Positions 5,521 to 22,299 of a stretch of DNA of 23,675 bases are shown here, piece by piece. Under the pieces are notes generated by a model. The model was given only the letters and a program-made list of their open reading frames with translations, was not told the DNA's origin and did no database searches. The DNA comes from a virus. Made by a program: the position numbers and the translations under genes. Each line of letters opens with the position of its first letter. The first letter of the stretch is position 1. The stretch lies in the IMG/VR virus record IMGVR_UViG_3300003324_000379, positions 1-23,675 of that record; one strand, 5' to 3'.

Positions 5521-5830
5521 AGACGTACTTACTCGCGCGGAACAAACCAATGAGAACGACTGCAACCAGGGGGTTTGTGTCCCGCTTTGCAGACCGAGAT
5601 TAGCAACAAGCTGGCAACTAACTAACTCCAAAAAATTTTTGAAACTAGTAGTTAGCTCGAACCTTATCGGCGTGTTGTGGCGCCGTCGCCCATCCGGTCA
5701 GGGTAAGGAGGACACACTTTTCCGCATCGACTGCACAGGAGGATCGAAACAGATGCAACCTGACGCGGGGCGAGGAGGTACGCCTGAACAATAGCGCAGA
5801 TCACAAATTTGCGCAAGGGCATCACGTTTG

Positions 5831-5876
5831 TGTGACGGGCCTAGTCACAAAAATTTTTGGCTAAACCCAAATTTTT
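5831..5876. repeat. Two adjacent inverted repeats (TGTGAC/GTCACA and an A/T-rich arm pair)
   Basis: TGTGAC and GTCACA form a 6-bp stem with a 7-base loop (5831-5849). It is followed by an A5T5 block and a second imperfect inverted repeat of AAATTT-type arms around GGctaaacCC (5849-5876). In plus-strand RNA the first hairpin is followed by a T run, so a weak terminator is possible. On the minus strand it could be an operator or a message-processing hairpin upstream of the spikes. The TGTGAC/GTCACA arms resemble the arms of the palindrome at 7545-7558, in inverted arrangement. Confidence 0.35.
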
Positions 5877-10589: not shown

Positions 10590-10931
10590 TTGCTTAAGAA
10601 CACCCCACGTTACGTCATCGGGTCGGGCGACGAGACGTACGAGTTTCCTATCGTCCGTGATGGCAGCACAAACCCACGAGCGGTTGTCGCGGTAAACGCG
10701 CCGTCGTTTGCGTTCGCCCTCGGCGCGGCGTTGGATTGGGCCAAGGCATTCACCAAGAGCGAGCAGGCAGCCGGTGGTGACGCCAAGGACGTCTTTTACC
10801 CGCAGGTGCGGTACAACCATAGCTCGACGCCAGATCGTAGGCTGGTGAAACGTATAGCCGGCGGCATGGCGTGGGCAGAGAACGAGAGTACCGGCGCCTG
10901 GCTGCCGCTCGCAGTCCTGGGGGCGGTATGA
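10590..10931 (+). CDS. Hypothetical protein, 113 residues
   Basis: The frame starts at TTG 10590 with AGAGG nine bases upstream. The protein contains GDETYEFPIVRDGSTNPRAV, NAPSFAFALGAALDWAKAFT and a C-terminal WAENESTGAWLPLAVLGAV. It is soluble, mixed alpha/beta, with no motif I know. The stop overlaps the ATG of the metallopeptidase by four bases. Confidence 0.6.
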   Translation: MLKNTPRYVIGSGDETYEFPIVRDGSTNPRAVVAVNAPSFAFALGAALDWAKAFTKSEQAAGGDAKDVFYPQVRYNHSSTPDRRLVKRIAGGMAWAENESTGAWLPLAVLGAV

Positions 10932-11248
10932 GAGTGAGAGATGCACAACGCAGCAAGCTGTACAAGGCCGAAAACGTCCTGCGGCTGCGCACGTTGGGCC
11001 ATCGAGACTTTCACTCTATCGCGGAGATTGCAATCTACGTCTCGGCGCTCATGATCGAGCCTTGGTTTCAAAAGAAGTTTGGAAAGATCGCGATCCCGAG
11101 GGTAGAAAAGGGACGGGGCAGTAACGCGACGCAGTCTCGGATGCGTATCGCCTCTTGGGGCTATGACAAGATGGTGGTGCTGCATGAGCTTGCACACGTC
11201 ATCGTCCGCAGTACGATGTCGCCTTGGCCTCCGGCGTGTTGCTTATAA
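10928..11248 (+). CDS. Zinc metallopeptidase, N-terminal part (reading frame interrupted)
   Basis: The start is ATG 10928 (ATGA overlap). The protein opens MRVRDAQRSKLYKAENVLR and reaches the zinc-binding helix VVLHELAHVIV (HExxH, about residues 80-91). This is a pattern of small phage and actinobacterial metallopeptidases that need a third ligand in a following HGxxF motif. Here the frame meets TAA at 11246-11248 before that motif. The missing motif HGREFAAVML appears at 11299 in another frame. Residues after about 103 (CCL) therefore come from inserted DNA. Either the gene is broken, or the insert is removed or bypassed. It probably cannot be active as translated from this frame alone. Confidence 0.7.
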   Translation: MRVRDAQRSKLYKAENVLRLRTLGHRDFHSIAEIAIYVSALMIEPWFQKKFGKIAIPRVEKGRGSNATQSRMRIASWGYDKMVVLHELAHVIVRSTMSPWPPACCL

Positions 11249-11298
11249 AGACATCCCTGTCCTATATAAGCAACATAGAGTGCTTATAAGCAACCGCT
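11237..11298 (+). other. 62-base palindrome-rich insert interrupting the metallopeptidase
   Basis: Omitting these bases joins CCG-GCG to CAT-GGC and restores a frame reading PWPPAHGREF, which is what the family needs. The exact edges are inferred. The insert contains GTTGCTTATA and TATAAGCAAC as a perfect 10-bp hairpin (arms about 11238-11247 and 11265-11274). It also carries the self-complementary TGCTTATAAGCA at 11281-11292. TGCTTATAA occurs at both ends, each time in the local reading frame. Its length is not a multiple of three, and stops occur in both relevant frames. It is too short for a group I intron or intein. Confidence 0.6.
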
Positions 11299-11496
11299 CA
11301 TGGCCGCGAGTTTGCGGCGGTGATGCTGAAGCTGGTTGAGCACGAGATTGGTAAGGAGCAGGCGCGTGAACTACGTGAGTCGTTCGTACGGCATGGCGTC
11401 AAGTATCGCGCGAAGAAGACGCTGTCACCCGAGACGCTGGCGCGGCTGCGAGAGCGTGGCAGACAGCTACAGGAGCAGAGGAGGCTCAATGCTTAA
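11290..11496 (+). pseudogene. C-terminal part of the interrupted metallopeptidase
   Basis: After TAA at 11287 the frame is open as ATAHGREFAAVMLKLVEHEIG and continues to RLRERGRQLQEQRRLNA. HGREF supplies the third zinc ligand of the HExxH family, and the helix AAVMLKLVEHEIG matches the downstream helix of such enzymes. No good start codon with a ribosome site exists at its head (GTG-ATG at 11320 would omit the histidine). As a separate product it would lack HExxH. The TAA overlaps the next ATG by eight bases (ATGCTTAA). Confidence 0.55.
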
Positions 11497-13009: not shown

Positions 13010-13689
13010 AGCCGCATGACTACGTCGTCACCTACAGTGGCGCCGAAGTCTCGCAAACTCGTGGCGTGCCGACTGAGGAGGATTTAGCACTCAGCCTTAG
13101 TCGGCAGCCGCGCTTCGGTGGGTTTTGTCGTCGGCACTGGACGGTGCTTGATCACTCGCTGTTCGTATCAATCCTCGCGGAGCGGGATAACCAGCCGGCA
13201 GCGGTGCAGCTTGCGGCGCTACTGCACGATGCACATGAGTGGACGGGAGATATCCCGACGCACTTCAAGACGGAAGACCAGCGTGATCTGCAGCGCAATC
13301 TCGATTTTAAGGTCGCGTTGGCCTACGCGCCGCAAGTATCGCTTTTGTTTTGGAATAGCGTCAAGGAGTATGATCACCGCGCGCTACTGGCGGAGGCACT
13401 GATCGTTGGACCGCCGCTGTTTCAATTCAGCCGCGATGTTCTTGAACACTTCGGGGCCCGACCAAACCTGCGAGATGTAGTTGCGTTGGTTGTGCGATTG
13501 CGCCGAGGTGAACTTGGCGTCAACCCCAACGAATTGAACTACAAGCTCGATGCACAAAACGTGAAAAATTTTCTGACAAGGCTGCATAGGCTGCAGCTTG
13601 AGGTAGCAATCACCAAAGACCCTGAGGTGCGCAATCGTTGCGCAGAGCCGAAGGGATTTCTTGCACACGAAACGAGGAGAGAGCAATGA
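13006..13689 (+). CDS. HD-domain phosphohydrolase (YfbR-like, probable nucleotidase)
   Basis: This 227-residue HD-superfamily enzyme probably hydrolyses deoxynucleoside monophosphates or related nucleotides during phage replication. Visible metal ligands are VLDHS (His50), ALLHDAHEW (His74-Asp75) and the later EYDHRALLAEA (Asp123), in the order and spacing of YfbR-type 5'-nucleotidases. GDIPTHFK after the HD motif fits the family. The GTG start at 13006 is set by the GTGA overlap. The substrate cannot be deduced; a (p)ppGpp-type substrate is less likely because the longer RelA/SpoT motifs are absent. Confidence 0.8.
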   Translation: MKPHDYVVTYSGAEVSQTRGVPTEEDLALSLSRQPRFGGFCRRHWTVLDHSLFVSILAERDNQPAAVQLAALLHDAHEWTGDIPTHFKTEDQRDLQRNLDFKVALAYAPQVSLLFWNSVKEYDHRALLAEALIVGPPLFQFSRDVLEHFGARPNLRDVVALVVRLRRGELGVNPNELNYKLDAQNVKNFLTRLHRLQLEVAITKDPEVRNRCAEPKGFLAHETRREQ

Positions 13690-14498
13690 GAAAGCAACAA
13701 CATAACGGTACGGTCGCACTCAAGGCGATCAACTTCTTGAAGCCGGTAGCAGAAGACGTTTTGGCCGCTGGTGAAGAAGGGAGGGAAGCAAGCGCGAGAG
13801 CGTTGACGGCGAAGCTGGACGCGATGACGATGGAGGAGATCGAAGATATCGGTCGCAGCTTTGACGCGCTGTTCGAGATCGCTGCGCTGGCGCAGACGAT
13901 GCTAGCAGTGCATTACGTCCGCAGAGAACGGCGCGGTAGTGGAGTTCCCGCACAGACACAGGCTACGGAGAAGATCGACGGCACCAACGCCAGCATATTC
14001 ATCGGCGAAGATGGTGCAGTGCACGCAGCAAGTCGAACGCGCTGGATCACGCCGCAGGATGACAACTACGGCTTCGCGCGTTGGGTAGCGGAGCATGAGG
14101 ATGCAATCCGTGAGGGACTCGGTGTTGGCCATCACTTCGGTGAGTGGTACGGCAGCGGGATTCAACGCGGCTACGGCCTCAAGAATGGTGAGAAGCGATT
14201 CGCGCTGTTCAACGTACAGCGTTGGTATGACGCGATCAATCAGGACTTCGTGTCACGACTTGATTTCGACAAGATGCAGACGCCGCCGTCGTTTATCGAC
14301 GTCGTACCAATCATCGGTATTGGCGTGTTCGATACCAACGCTATTATCGTGGCAGCCAATGAACTTCTACAAGGTGGTTCTGTAGCAGTTCCAGGTTTCA
14401 TGCGTCCAGAAGGGATCGTCGTCTACCACAAGGCTGGCGACGTGCTGTTCAAATACACGTTCGACAAGAATGACGGACACAAAGGGGGCGGAAAGTGA
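13686..14498 (+). CDS. RNA ligase of the T4 Rnl2 type with an unusual N-terminal helical region
   Basis: This enzyme seals nicked or broken RNA through a lysyl-AMP intermediate. Nucleotidyltransferase motifs are KIDGTN (Lys96 is the adenylation site), FGEWYGSGIQRGY (motif III, 151-163), RFALFNV (IIIa, 171-177), PEGIVVY (IV, 241-247) and LFKYTF (V, Lys256). The ligase core is complete but short and lacks an obvious C-terminal domain. In most relatives the lysine lies 30-40 residues from the start. Here about 95 residues precede it, and they form an unrelated helical, acidic segment (EEGREASARALTAKLDAMTMEEIEDIG) in place of the usual N-terminal strand. The start is ATGA-overlapped. tRNA repair is a plausible role. 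Confidence 0.85.
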   Translation: MRKQQHNGTVALKAINFLKPVAEDVLAAGEEGREASARALTAKLDAMTMEEIEDIGRSFDALFEIAALAQTMLAVHYVRRERRGSGVPAQTQATEKIDGTNASIFIGEDGAVHAASRTRWITPQDDNYGFARWVAEHEDAIREGLGVGHHFGEWYGSGIQRGYGLKNGEKRFALFNVQRWYDAINQDFVSRLDFDKMQTPPSFIDVVPIIGIGVFDTNAIIVAANELLQGGSVAVPGFMRPEGIVVYHKAGDVLFKYTFDKNDGHKGGGK

Positions 14499-16405: not shown

Positions 16406-16673
16406 TAGAGGTAAACGACTTTGGCGAACGGCGCGTGGCGAACAATTGTCGGTCGAGAAAATAGGCGACGCACATCTAGTAAACTGCCTCAACATGATCG
16501 AGGCGAACGTGCGCGGGCGACCCACACTGTCGGGGTTTCTTCCGAAACGTAACGTCGATATGTACGTGGAACTTGCGGTAGAAGCGATTCGGCGTGGGTT
16601 GTTCATATGGGACCCCGAACGAAAGTATGTTGCGGCGACTGCGTTACTAGCGCGTGAGTATGAAGCGGTGTAA
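16398..16673 (+). CDS. Hypothetical protein, 91 residues
   Basis: ATG 16398 lies in an 8-base overlap (ATGTTTAA) with the nuclease stop. The protein (MFNRGKRLWRTARGEQLS, then LVNCLNMIEANVRGR and DMYVELAVEAIRRGLF) resembles small phage proteins containing I-x-D-x-H-L-x-N, as in families of short accessory proteins next to nucleases. No function can be assigned. Its stop overlaps the start of the endonuclease VII gene. Confidence 0.65.
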   Translation: MFNRGKRLWRTARGEQLSVEKIGDAHLVNCLNMIEANVRGRPTLSGFLPKRNVDMYVELAVEAIRRGLFIWDPERKYVAATALLAREYEAV

Positions 16674-16998
16674 CAAATGCTGTGAAGTCAAGCATGCGAA
16701 CCAGTTTCGCAAAGGCGAATGGGTCTGCAAGAAATGCCGCAGCGAGCAGCGCGGACATCATCGACGACTGCATGAGTACGGACTGACGTTCGAGGAGTAT
16801 TCGGCTTTGCTCGACGAGCAAGAAGGGCGGTGCGCAATCTGTCGAGAGGAGTTTGAAGGCGCGCCGCATGTAGATCACGATCACGAGACGCGGAAGGTAC
16901 GTGGCCTGCTTTGTCATCACTGCAACACAGGCATCGGTCTATTGCGCAACGTGAAGATTCTCAAACAGGCAATATCCTATCTACGGGGAGAGGAATGA
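16660..16998 (+). CDS. Recombination endonuclease VII (His-Me finger), 112 residues
   Basis: This is a branched-DNA or homing-type nuclease. The N-terminal zinc site uses CNKC and CKKC; the core has CAIC, VDHDHETRKVRGLLCHHCNTGIG (catalytic HxDHDH with the His-Me finger) and a C-terminal helix. This is the PF02945 pattern. An in-frame GTG at 16654 would add two residues; I prefer ATG 16660 (MKRCNKC). Free-standing enzymes of this type are common in phages, as resolvases or mobile endonucleases. A second copy is at 21964. Confidence 0.9.
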   Translation: MKRCNKCCEVKHANQFRKGEWVCKKCRSEQRGHHRRLHEYGLTFEEYSALLDEQEGRCAICREEFEGAPHVDHDHETRKVRGLLCHHCNTGIGLLRNVKILKQAISYLRGEE

Positions 16999-17377: not shown

Positions 17378-17499
17378 GGCCTGTTAGTTTAATTGTTAAA
17401 ACAGTCGGAGTGCATGAGTAGCGCGTTAGGTGACGACCTTGCGTACGGCGCGCGAAAGACCTTCCGGAGAAGATGGGGGTTAGAATCCCTCACAGGCCA
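17378..17499 (+). tRNA. tRNA-Cys-like gene (anticodon GCA) with about 48 extra bases in the anticodon loop
   Basis: The acceptor GGCCTGT/ACAGGCC, D arm GTTT-AATTGTTA-AAAC and T arm GGGGG-TTAGAAT-CCCTC are all good, though T-loop position 56 is A instead of C. Anticodon-stem arms TCGGA (17405-17409) and TCCGG (17463-17467) are separated by 53 bases rather than 7. The 5' side reads G-T-G-C-A, giving T33 and anticodon GCA. The extra bases form GCGCG/CGCGC (17421-17425 with 17449-17453) around AGGT-GACG-ACCT. Either the tRNA carries a tiny intron, or an insertion has inactivated it, or it is a tRNA-like structure. CCA is not encoded. Confidence 0.6.
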
Positions 17500-21963: not shown

Positions 21964-22299
21964 TTGTCGCCGCATAAGGATCGCAAGGTACGCCTTGCTT
22001 ATCTGAAAGACTATCGTACCAAGAATCGAGACAAGCATATTGCGGGAAATCGGGATGCTGCGTATCGACGTAAGTACGGTATCAGCACAGAGCAATATGA
22101 GAAGATGCTCGCTGCGCAGGGCGGAGTATGTTTCTTGTGCGGCAAGCCGCCCAAACGAAAGCGGTTACACGTCGATCACAACCATGACTCAGGAGTCGCG
22201 CGGAAGTTATTATGTGCGTCTTGCAATAGAGGCTTGGCTTATCTCGAACACGCCACTTGGTTTTCAAAAGCACGAGCGTATCTTGCAACCTATGTCTGA
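21964..22299 (+). CDS. Recombination endonuclease VII (His-Me finger), second copy, 111 residues
   Basis: TTG 21964 (MSPHKDRKVRLAYLKDYR) follows GGTGGAGG at workable distance and directly abuts the previous TAG. Key elements are YRRKYGISTEQYEKMLAAQGG, CFLC (56-59), HVDHNHDSGVARKLLCASCNRGL (His69, Asp71, His72 and Cys84, Cys87) and a final helix. The pattern is PF02945. Unlike the copy at 16660 it has no N-terminal extra zinc cysteines but a basic head, usual for free-standing phage nucleases of this type. Location between polymerase and primase genes also fits an invading mobile nuclease. Confidence 0.9.
   Translation: MSPHKDRKVRLAYLKDYRTKNRDKHIAGNRDAAYRRKYGISTEQYEKMLAAQGGVCFLCGKPPKRKRLHVDHNHDSGVARKLLCASCNRGLAYLEHATWFSKARAYLATYV

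Follow-up and report, generated by a model that had tools for sequence, protein, structure and literature searches.

The window, the whole 23.7-kb stretch of DNA analysed here, is a fragment of a tailed phage from an IMG/VR record. It encodes a terminase, a tail spike, a family A DNA polymerase, a primase, an RNA ligase and two endonuclease VII-like genes, the latter possibly free-standing homing endonucleases (Table 1). Close relatives of the phage, sought in the collections through its DNA polymerase and DUF2800, were not found. Within the window, a gene of the TIGR04338 family of HEXXH metallohydrolases is split between its HELAH and HGREF motifs, and the coordinates and frames that an earlier note, made from the sequence alone, had given for a 62-nt insert at this place were right, namely HELAH at about 11183, a TAA at 11246 and HGREF resuming from 11299 in another frame. 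The upstream open reading frame begins at an ATG that overlaps the upstream neighbour by ATGA and, after PWPPA (11236), reads TGT TGC TTA before the TAA at 11246-11248, giving 106 codons in total, and the end of the downstream part at 11496 overlaps the ATG of the next gene at 11489.

Table 1. Coordinates of the split gene, the insert with its putative operator sites, and other features of the window
Feature	Position	Strand	Remarks
Metallohydrolase, N-terminal part	10928..11236	+	103 codons; HELAH at about 11183
AT-rich insert, 62 nt	11237..11298	.	39% GC; shifts frame, introduces stops
Perfect inverted repeat, 11 bp	11237..11275	.	TGTTGCTTATA 11237-11247 / TATAAGCAACA 11265-11275
Putative operator half-site 3, inverted	11238..11247	+	GTTGCTTATA; N17 from site 2 (N16 in L227, L228)
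Putative operator half-site 2	11265..11274	-	GTTGCTTATA; N10 after site 1; 20-bp repeat spacing as in L227, L228
12-base palindrome	11281-11292		TGCTTATAAGCA
Putative operator half-site 1	11285..11294	-	GTTGCTTATA; overlaps palindrome TGCTTATAAGCA
Metallohydrolase, C-terminal part	11299..11496	+	CAT at 11299, HGREF...; 65 codons plus TAA; other frame
RNA ligase gene	13638-14498	+	PHROG 548 3.6e-34; Pfam PF09414 4.2e-15
HTH_3 protein of the phage, 68 aa	15682-15888
Endonuclease VII-like gene, first	16654-16998	+	Pfam PF02945 5.1e-22
Interrupted tRNA gene	17378-17499	+	Rfam 42.2 bits; 122 nt vs 71-nt model
Endonuclease VII-like gene, second	21964-22299	+	Similarity to same region of L121, i.e. 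to first gene

Both halves of the gene match the TIGR04338 family colinearly, although the matches of the NCBIfam model to the N part (3.2e-7, model positions 41-123) and to the C part (0.015, model positions 128-161) fall below its curated cut-off of 90 bits. Against a profile built from 67 viral relatives, the N part scored 83.7 bits (profile positions 14-113) and the C part 52.3 bits (profile positions 120-184). Removal of the 62 nt restores a continuous frame, as the earlier note had claimed, and the halves, joined in silico as an empty site, then form one family member that scores 144.0 bits with the same profile. Third-position GC is 0.70 and 0.71 in the two halves, and the C part ranked 23 of 68, above the median, in leave-one-out scoring and is thus not degraded. 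Given this state of preservation, the break would be recent by the standards of the family, or else the C half would still be in use, or the insert would be an artefact, and the sequence alone is indecisive among the three.

The gene proved uninterrupted wherever intact alleles could be looked for in related phages, a check that had been proposed beforehand: in every readable locus among 80 relatives retrieved from IMG/VR, of which L143 was left unparsed by the script, HExxH and the H-G motif stand in a single frame. In the window, HExxH and the third-ligand motif HG..F/Y are separated by the stop and the frameshift. The distance between the two motifs ranges from about 4 to 20 residues in the relatives and comes to 13 residues in the window when the insert is subtracted, as in Brevundimonas phage Bajun; since this spacing varies, the insert lies in a loop that tolerates changes of length.

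The insert itself has a lower GC content than its surroundings (about 55%). Its ends can be placed only to within a few codons, since the frames are rejoined equally well by removing 59, 65 or 68 nt, and the GC pair at 11234-35 and 11296-97 adds a boundary ambiguity of up to 2 nt. The perfect hairpin described earlier is real, with a stem of 11 rather than 10 bp; it has an inner 4-bp stem, spans 39 nt overall and has a folding energy of -15.0 kcal/mol. The 12-base palindrome was likewise borne out. Taken alone, palindromes and inverted repeats of such length are no rarity within the window, which holds 7 palindromes of 12 bp (7.5 expected) and 9 start pairs of 10-bp inverted repeats (2.0 expected). 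A further inverted repeat, of 18 nt (89%; 5631-5648 and 5841-5858, with 192 nt between the arms), lies beyond the start of the tail spike gene. The insert had no match in Rfam, and a BLAST search against phages and plasmids returned matches at chance level only. The proposal that it is a tiny mobile palindrome stood in so far as the palindrome appears to come from elsewhere, and gained no support as to mobility: the 23.7-kb contig (a fragment), where a search for further copies had been suggested, holds no second one, target duplication does not exceed the 2-bp GC repeat, and no related repeat family was found.

A different picture emerges when the insert is read on the minus strand, where the 10-mer GTTGCTTATA occurs three times in the arrangement GTTGCTTATA-N10-GTTGCTTATA-N17-TATAAGCAAC, a triple for which a first-order model predicts about 2e-14 chance occurrences in the window. 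A scan of a genome collection of 84,980 species with the pattern TGTTGCTTATA-N8..30-TATAAGCAAC returned 8 loci. Three of these lie in regions of high GC content (63-64%), in which chance would hardly ever produce an AT-rich pair of this kind (about 0.02 expected by our own estimate), and one of the 8, in a member of the Gemmatimonadota, has a third copy at the position that it takes in the window. The triple turned up in a second genome in a scan of 395 Gemmatimonadota genomes, in which a reversed control pattern had no match, and both genomes (L227 and L228) have the form GTTGCTTATA-N10-GTTGCTTATA-N16-TATAAGCAAC. Among 399 Mycobacteriales genomes the pair pattern recovered only the genome already known, which lacks the triple, and scans of IMG/VR for the inverted repeat (104 contigs) and for the N10 direct pair (3 contigs) yielded no contig with the triple. 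As the half-site was the search key, its match is by construction, while the third copy, the N10 spacing and the gene context are independent of it; with the triple found in two genomes only, it is the triple together with its spacing on which the operator claim is built.

In both genomes the triple ends 18-22 nt upstream of the start codon of an operon whose first genes are 82% identical and encode proteins of 318-319 aa that combine a winged-helix part (HTH_IclR, 7.7e-10) with a nucleotidyltransferase-like one, the latter a match to the candidate defence family PDC-M05A (1.1e-9), and whose second gene encodes a DUF6036 nucleotidyltransferase. PDC-M05 pairs a nucleotidyltransferase with a HEPN protein and is a candidate system whose antiviral role is unconfirmed (PMC12988326). 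Homologs of the winged-helix protein were present in 15 of 150 Gemmatimonadota genomes, with the DUF6036 partner adjoining most of the longer ones (operons L227, L228 and L230-L245; the copy at L245 has two in-frame TGA codons). The homologs, about 30-45% identical, have a different repeat sequence with the same 20-bp spacing upstream of their starts, the design being a direct repeat at this spacing and, immediately ahead of the start, an inverted copy; for 12 of 17 upstream regions, including the two triples, no more than 2 of 60 mononucleotide shuffles scored as well. A repeat sequence that changes with the protein while its spacing is kept is the pattern expected of autoregulated operators, and the winged-helix protein would thus be predicted to bind the repeats in its own promoter.

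By analogy, the operon may encode an AbiE-like toxin-antitoxin pair. AbiEi, the antitoxin of the type IV system AbiE, represses its own operon by binding two 23-bp promoter repeats, and Rv2827c binds four repeats (PMC7319586). The likeness lies in the presence of several repeats shortly ahead of the start codon in a two-gene operon of the winged-helix/nucleotidyltransferase kind, and in the presumed autorepression. The AbiE repeats are 3 or 13 bp apart, whereas here 10-bp half-sites recur at 20-bp spacing; the first protein here is HTH_IclR-like with a degenerate nucleotidyltransferase part and the second is DUF6036, and in the phage the operator stands alone inside a gene.

We consider it probable that the insert is a copy of the operator/promoter region from such an AbiE-like, bicistronic operon of Gemmatimonadota type, in which the gene for a DUF6036 nucleotidyltransferase follows that for a winged-helix protein whose nucleotidyltransferase part is degenerate, and that this stray copy disrupts the phage gene. 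It is called a stray copy, and not a working operator of that operon, because the operon is absent from the window, which encodes no relative of either operon protein; nor does the insert lie upstream of its operon's start codon. The promoter region would have been captured by illegitimate recombination into the loop between the zinc-ligand motifs, or, by an alternative route, the operon may once have inserted there and later have been lost except for its operator. A GGAGG stands on the minus strand just past the sites, in phage sequence, and since the bacterial promoters have a GGAGG too, the donor segment may reach a few bases into the sequence read as PWPPA. At present the split most likely deprives the phage of the full-length enzyme, the remaining product presumably being truncated at 106 residues and devoid of the third zinc ligand. 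The insertion event, which we infer from comparison with the family, the collections holding no close phage relative with an empty site, would be apparently recent. For the host of the phage, the operator gives no more than a hint at Gemmatimonadota; the N part of the metallohydrolase had no match in 150 Gemmatimonadota genomes in a search run without a positive control.

If the stray-operator reading is right, a suspected recoding signal becomes an identified DNA element, and the lesson would be that what looks like an RNA hairpin in an insert that shifts the frame can be a DNA operator. Attention would also be drawn to a repeat-controlled winged-helix/DUF6036 operon of the Gemmatimonadota in which the operator sequence diverges among homologs while the 20-bp spacing is kept. 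A phage with the operator and without the operon, moreover, makes operator capture or a decoy function testable.

Such a function is the first alternative to be weighed, namely that the phage has gained a functional operator, either as a replicated decoy that titrates the winged-helix regulator of the host or as a repressor-controlled antisense promoter. This we hold to be unlikely, even though the insert stands without the operon and has all three half-sites intact, as there is one copy only and a broken gene is a costly location. A decoy role, suggested by the orphan sites, is possible; replicating phage genomes might soak up the regulator and upset a defence operon at the cost of one non-essential gene, a scenario we regard as doubtful, since in an AbiE-like system more toxin would be expected once the autorepressor is titrated, and a search of the literature returned no precedent for such a decoy.

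It also seems improbable that the operator serves a small repressor of the HTH_3/XRE type, such as the 68-aa protein that the phage itself encodes, instead of belonging to the winged-helix operon. The window does encode this HTH_3 protein, and TGTTGCTTATAG sites lie 33-36 nt upstream of small HTH_3 genes in 8 phage contigs; however, the sites in those contigs are single, without the N10 triple, and the window has no comparable further site, including near its HTH_3 gene. A wider assignment of all such sites to XRE or controller-protein operators was dropped once the triple had been traced to the winged-helix operon. The C-box operators of restriction-modification controller proteins resemble the insert in having tandem dyads in the promoter of a small autoregulated helix-turn-helix gene, but the regulator has another fold, and the core of the insert is GTTGCTTATA and not the GACT/AGTC of C-boxes (PMC5282649).

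An artefact of assembly or amplification, which a single metagenome contig and the failure to find a close relative would allow, is quite unlikely in our estimation, given that the continuity of the gene is exact on both sides and that the insert, not being of local origin, matches a real promoter layout.

Programmed bypassing, by which ribosomes would take off at the Ala codon GCG at 11234 beside the 11-bp hairpin, resume after the Ala codon GCT at 11296 and so make the full-length enzyme, appears very unlikely. Several features speak for it, including a gap of 62 nt that is close to the 50-nt gap of T4 gene 60, a stable hairpin that begins at the first inserted base, good conservation of both gene halves and synonymous Ala codons on either side. 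The earlier note, which had raised bypassing, pointed to TGC-TTA-TAA in frame at both ends; this run is indeed there, at 11240 in the upstream frame and at 11281 in the downstream one, yet it is unusable for landing, because a TAA follows the landing TTA directly in the landing frame, so that the TTA/TTA pair is excluded and the bypass element is left poorly supported. The pair GCG/GCT agrees in two letters only, a match that by our own estimate has a probability of about one in three of arising by chance with some six codon pairs, and the stop is three codons away; nor is there an SD-like stretch before the landing site, and bypassing does not predict an operator layout with two-turn spacing. 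T4 gene 60, likewise a phage gene with a short out-of-frame hairpin insert, has matched GGA codons, an adjacent stop, an SD-like sequence before the landing site and a nascent-peptide signal (PMC5009743), whereas the insert in the window lacks matched take-off and landing codons, an adjacent stop and an SD-like signal. The byps of Magnusiomyces capitatus mitochondria are also short frame-disrupting blocks in otherwise intact genes, but there are many per genome (81 positions; PMC5009743), while the insert is present in one copy and matches the promoter DNA of another gene. Archaeal-type bulge-helix-bulge splicing was rejected by eye on the junction fold (a 3x3 loop, 4 bp and a 1-nt bulge, not 3-4-3), as were integron attC sites, transposons and REP-type elements for want of matching ends.

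The half-site GTTGCTTATA is not unique to the winged-helix operon, as it is also found in promoters of other genes, and the half-site alone therefore does not identify a regulator. Paired half-sites occur between ParB-like and PAPS-reductase-like genes in mycobacterial plasmids and genomes. There, four loci (L188, L193, L219 and L220) have in common a long inverted repeat, TGTTGCYTATAGNCTACA...TGTAGNCTATARGCAACA, beside these genes (examples are NC_018022 and NZ_AP022602), an apparent conserved operator. In eight phage contigs (L196, L201, L202, L204, L206, L212, L215 and L218), TGTTGCTTATAGNNTACA stands 33-36 nt upstream of an HTH_3-type gene for a protein of 64-66 aa and is apparently the operator of this repressor family.

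The window also contains an interrupted tRNA gene; a relation of its insert to that of the metallohydrolase gene was considered and dropped, the two differing in composition and sequence. The acceptor, D and T arms of the tRNA are intact and its anticodon loop has 53 nt instead of 7; ARAGORN matched it in intron mode only, with a 46-nt insert at 35/36 and Val GAC as an uncertain anticodon. By eye, U19-A56 takes the place of the usual G19-C56, which would suggest that the tRNA has not simply decayed. So short an insert in the anticodon loop is unusual for a phage of bacteria. The RNA ligase gene lies about 3 kb from this tRNA, and its product may play a part in repairing or splicing the tRNA.
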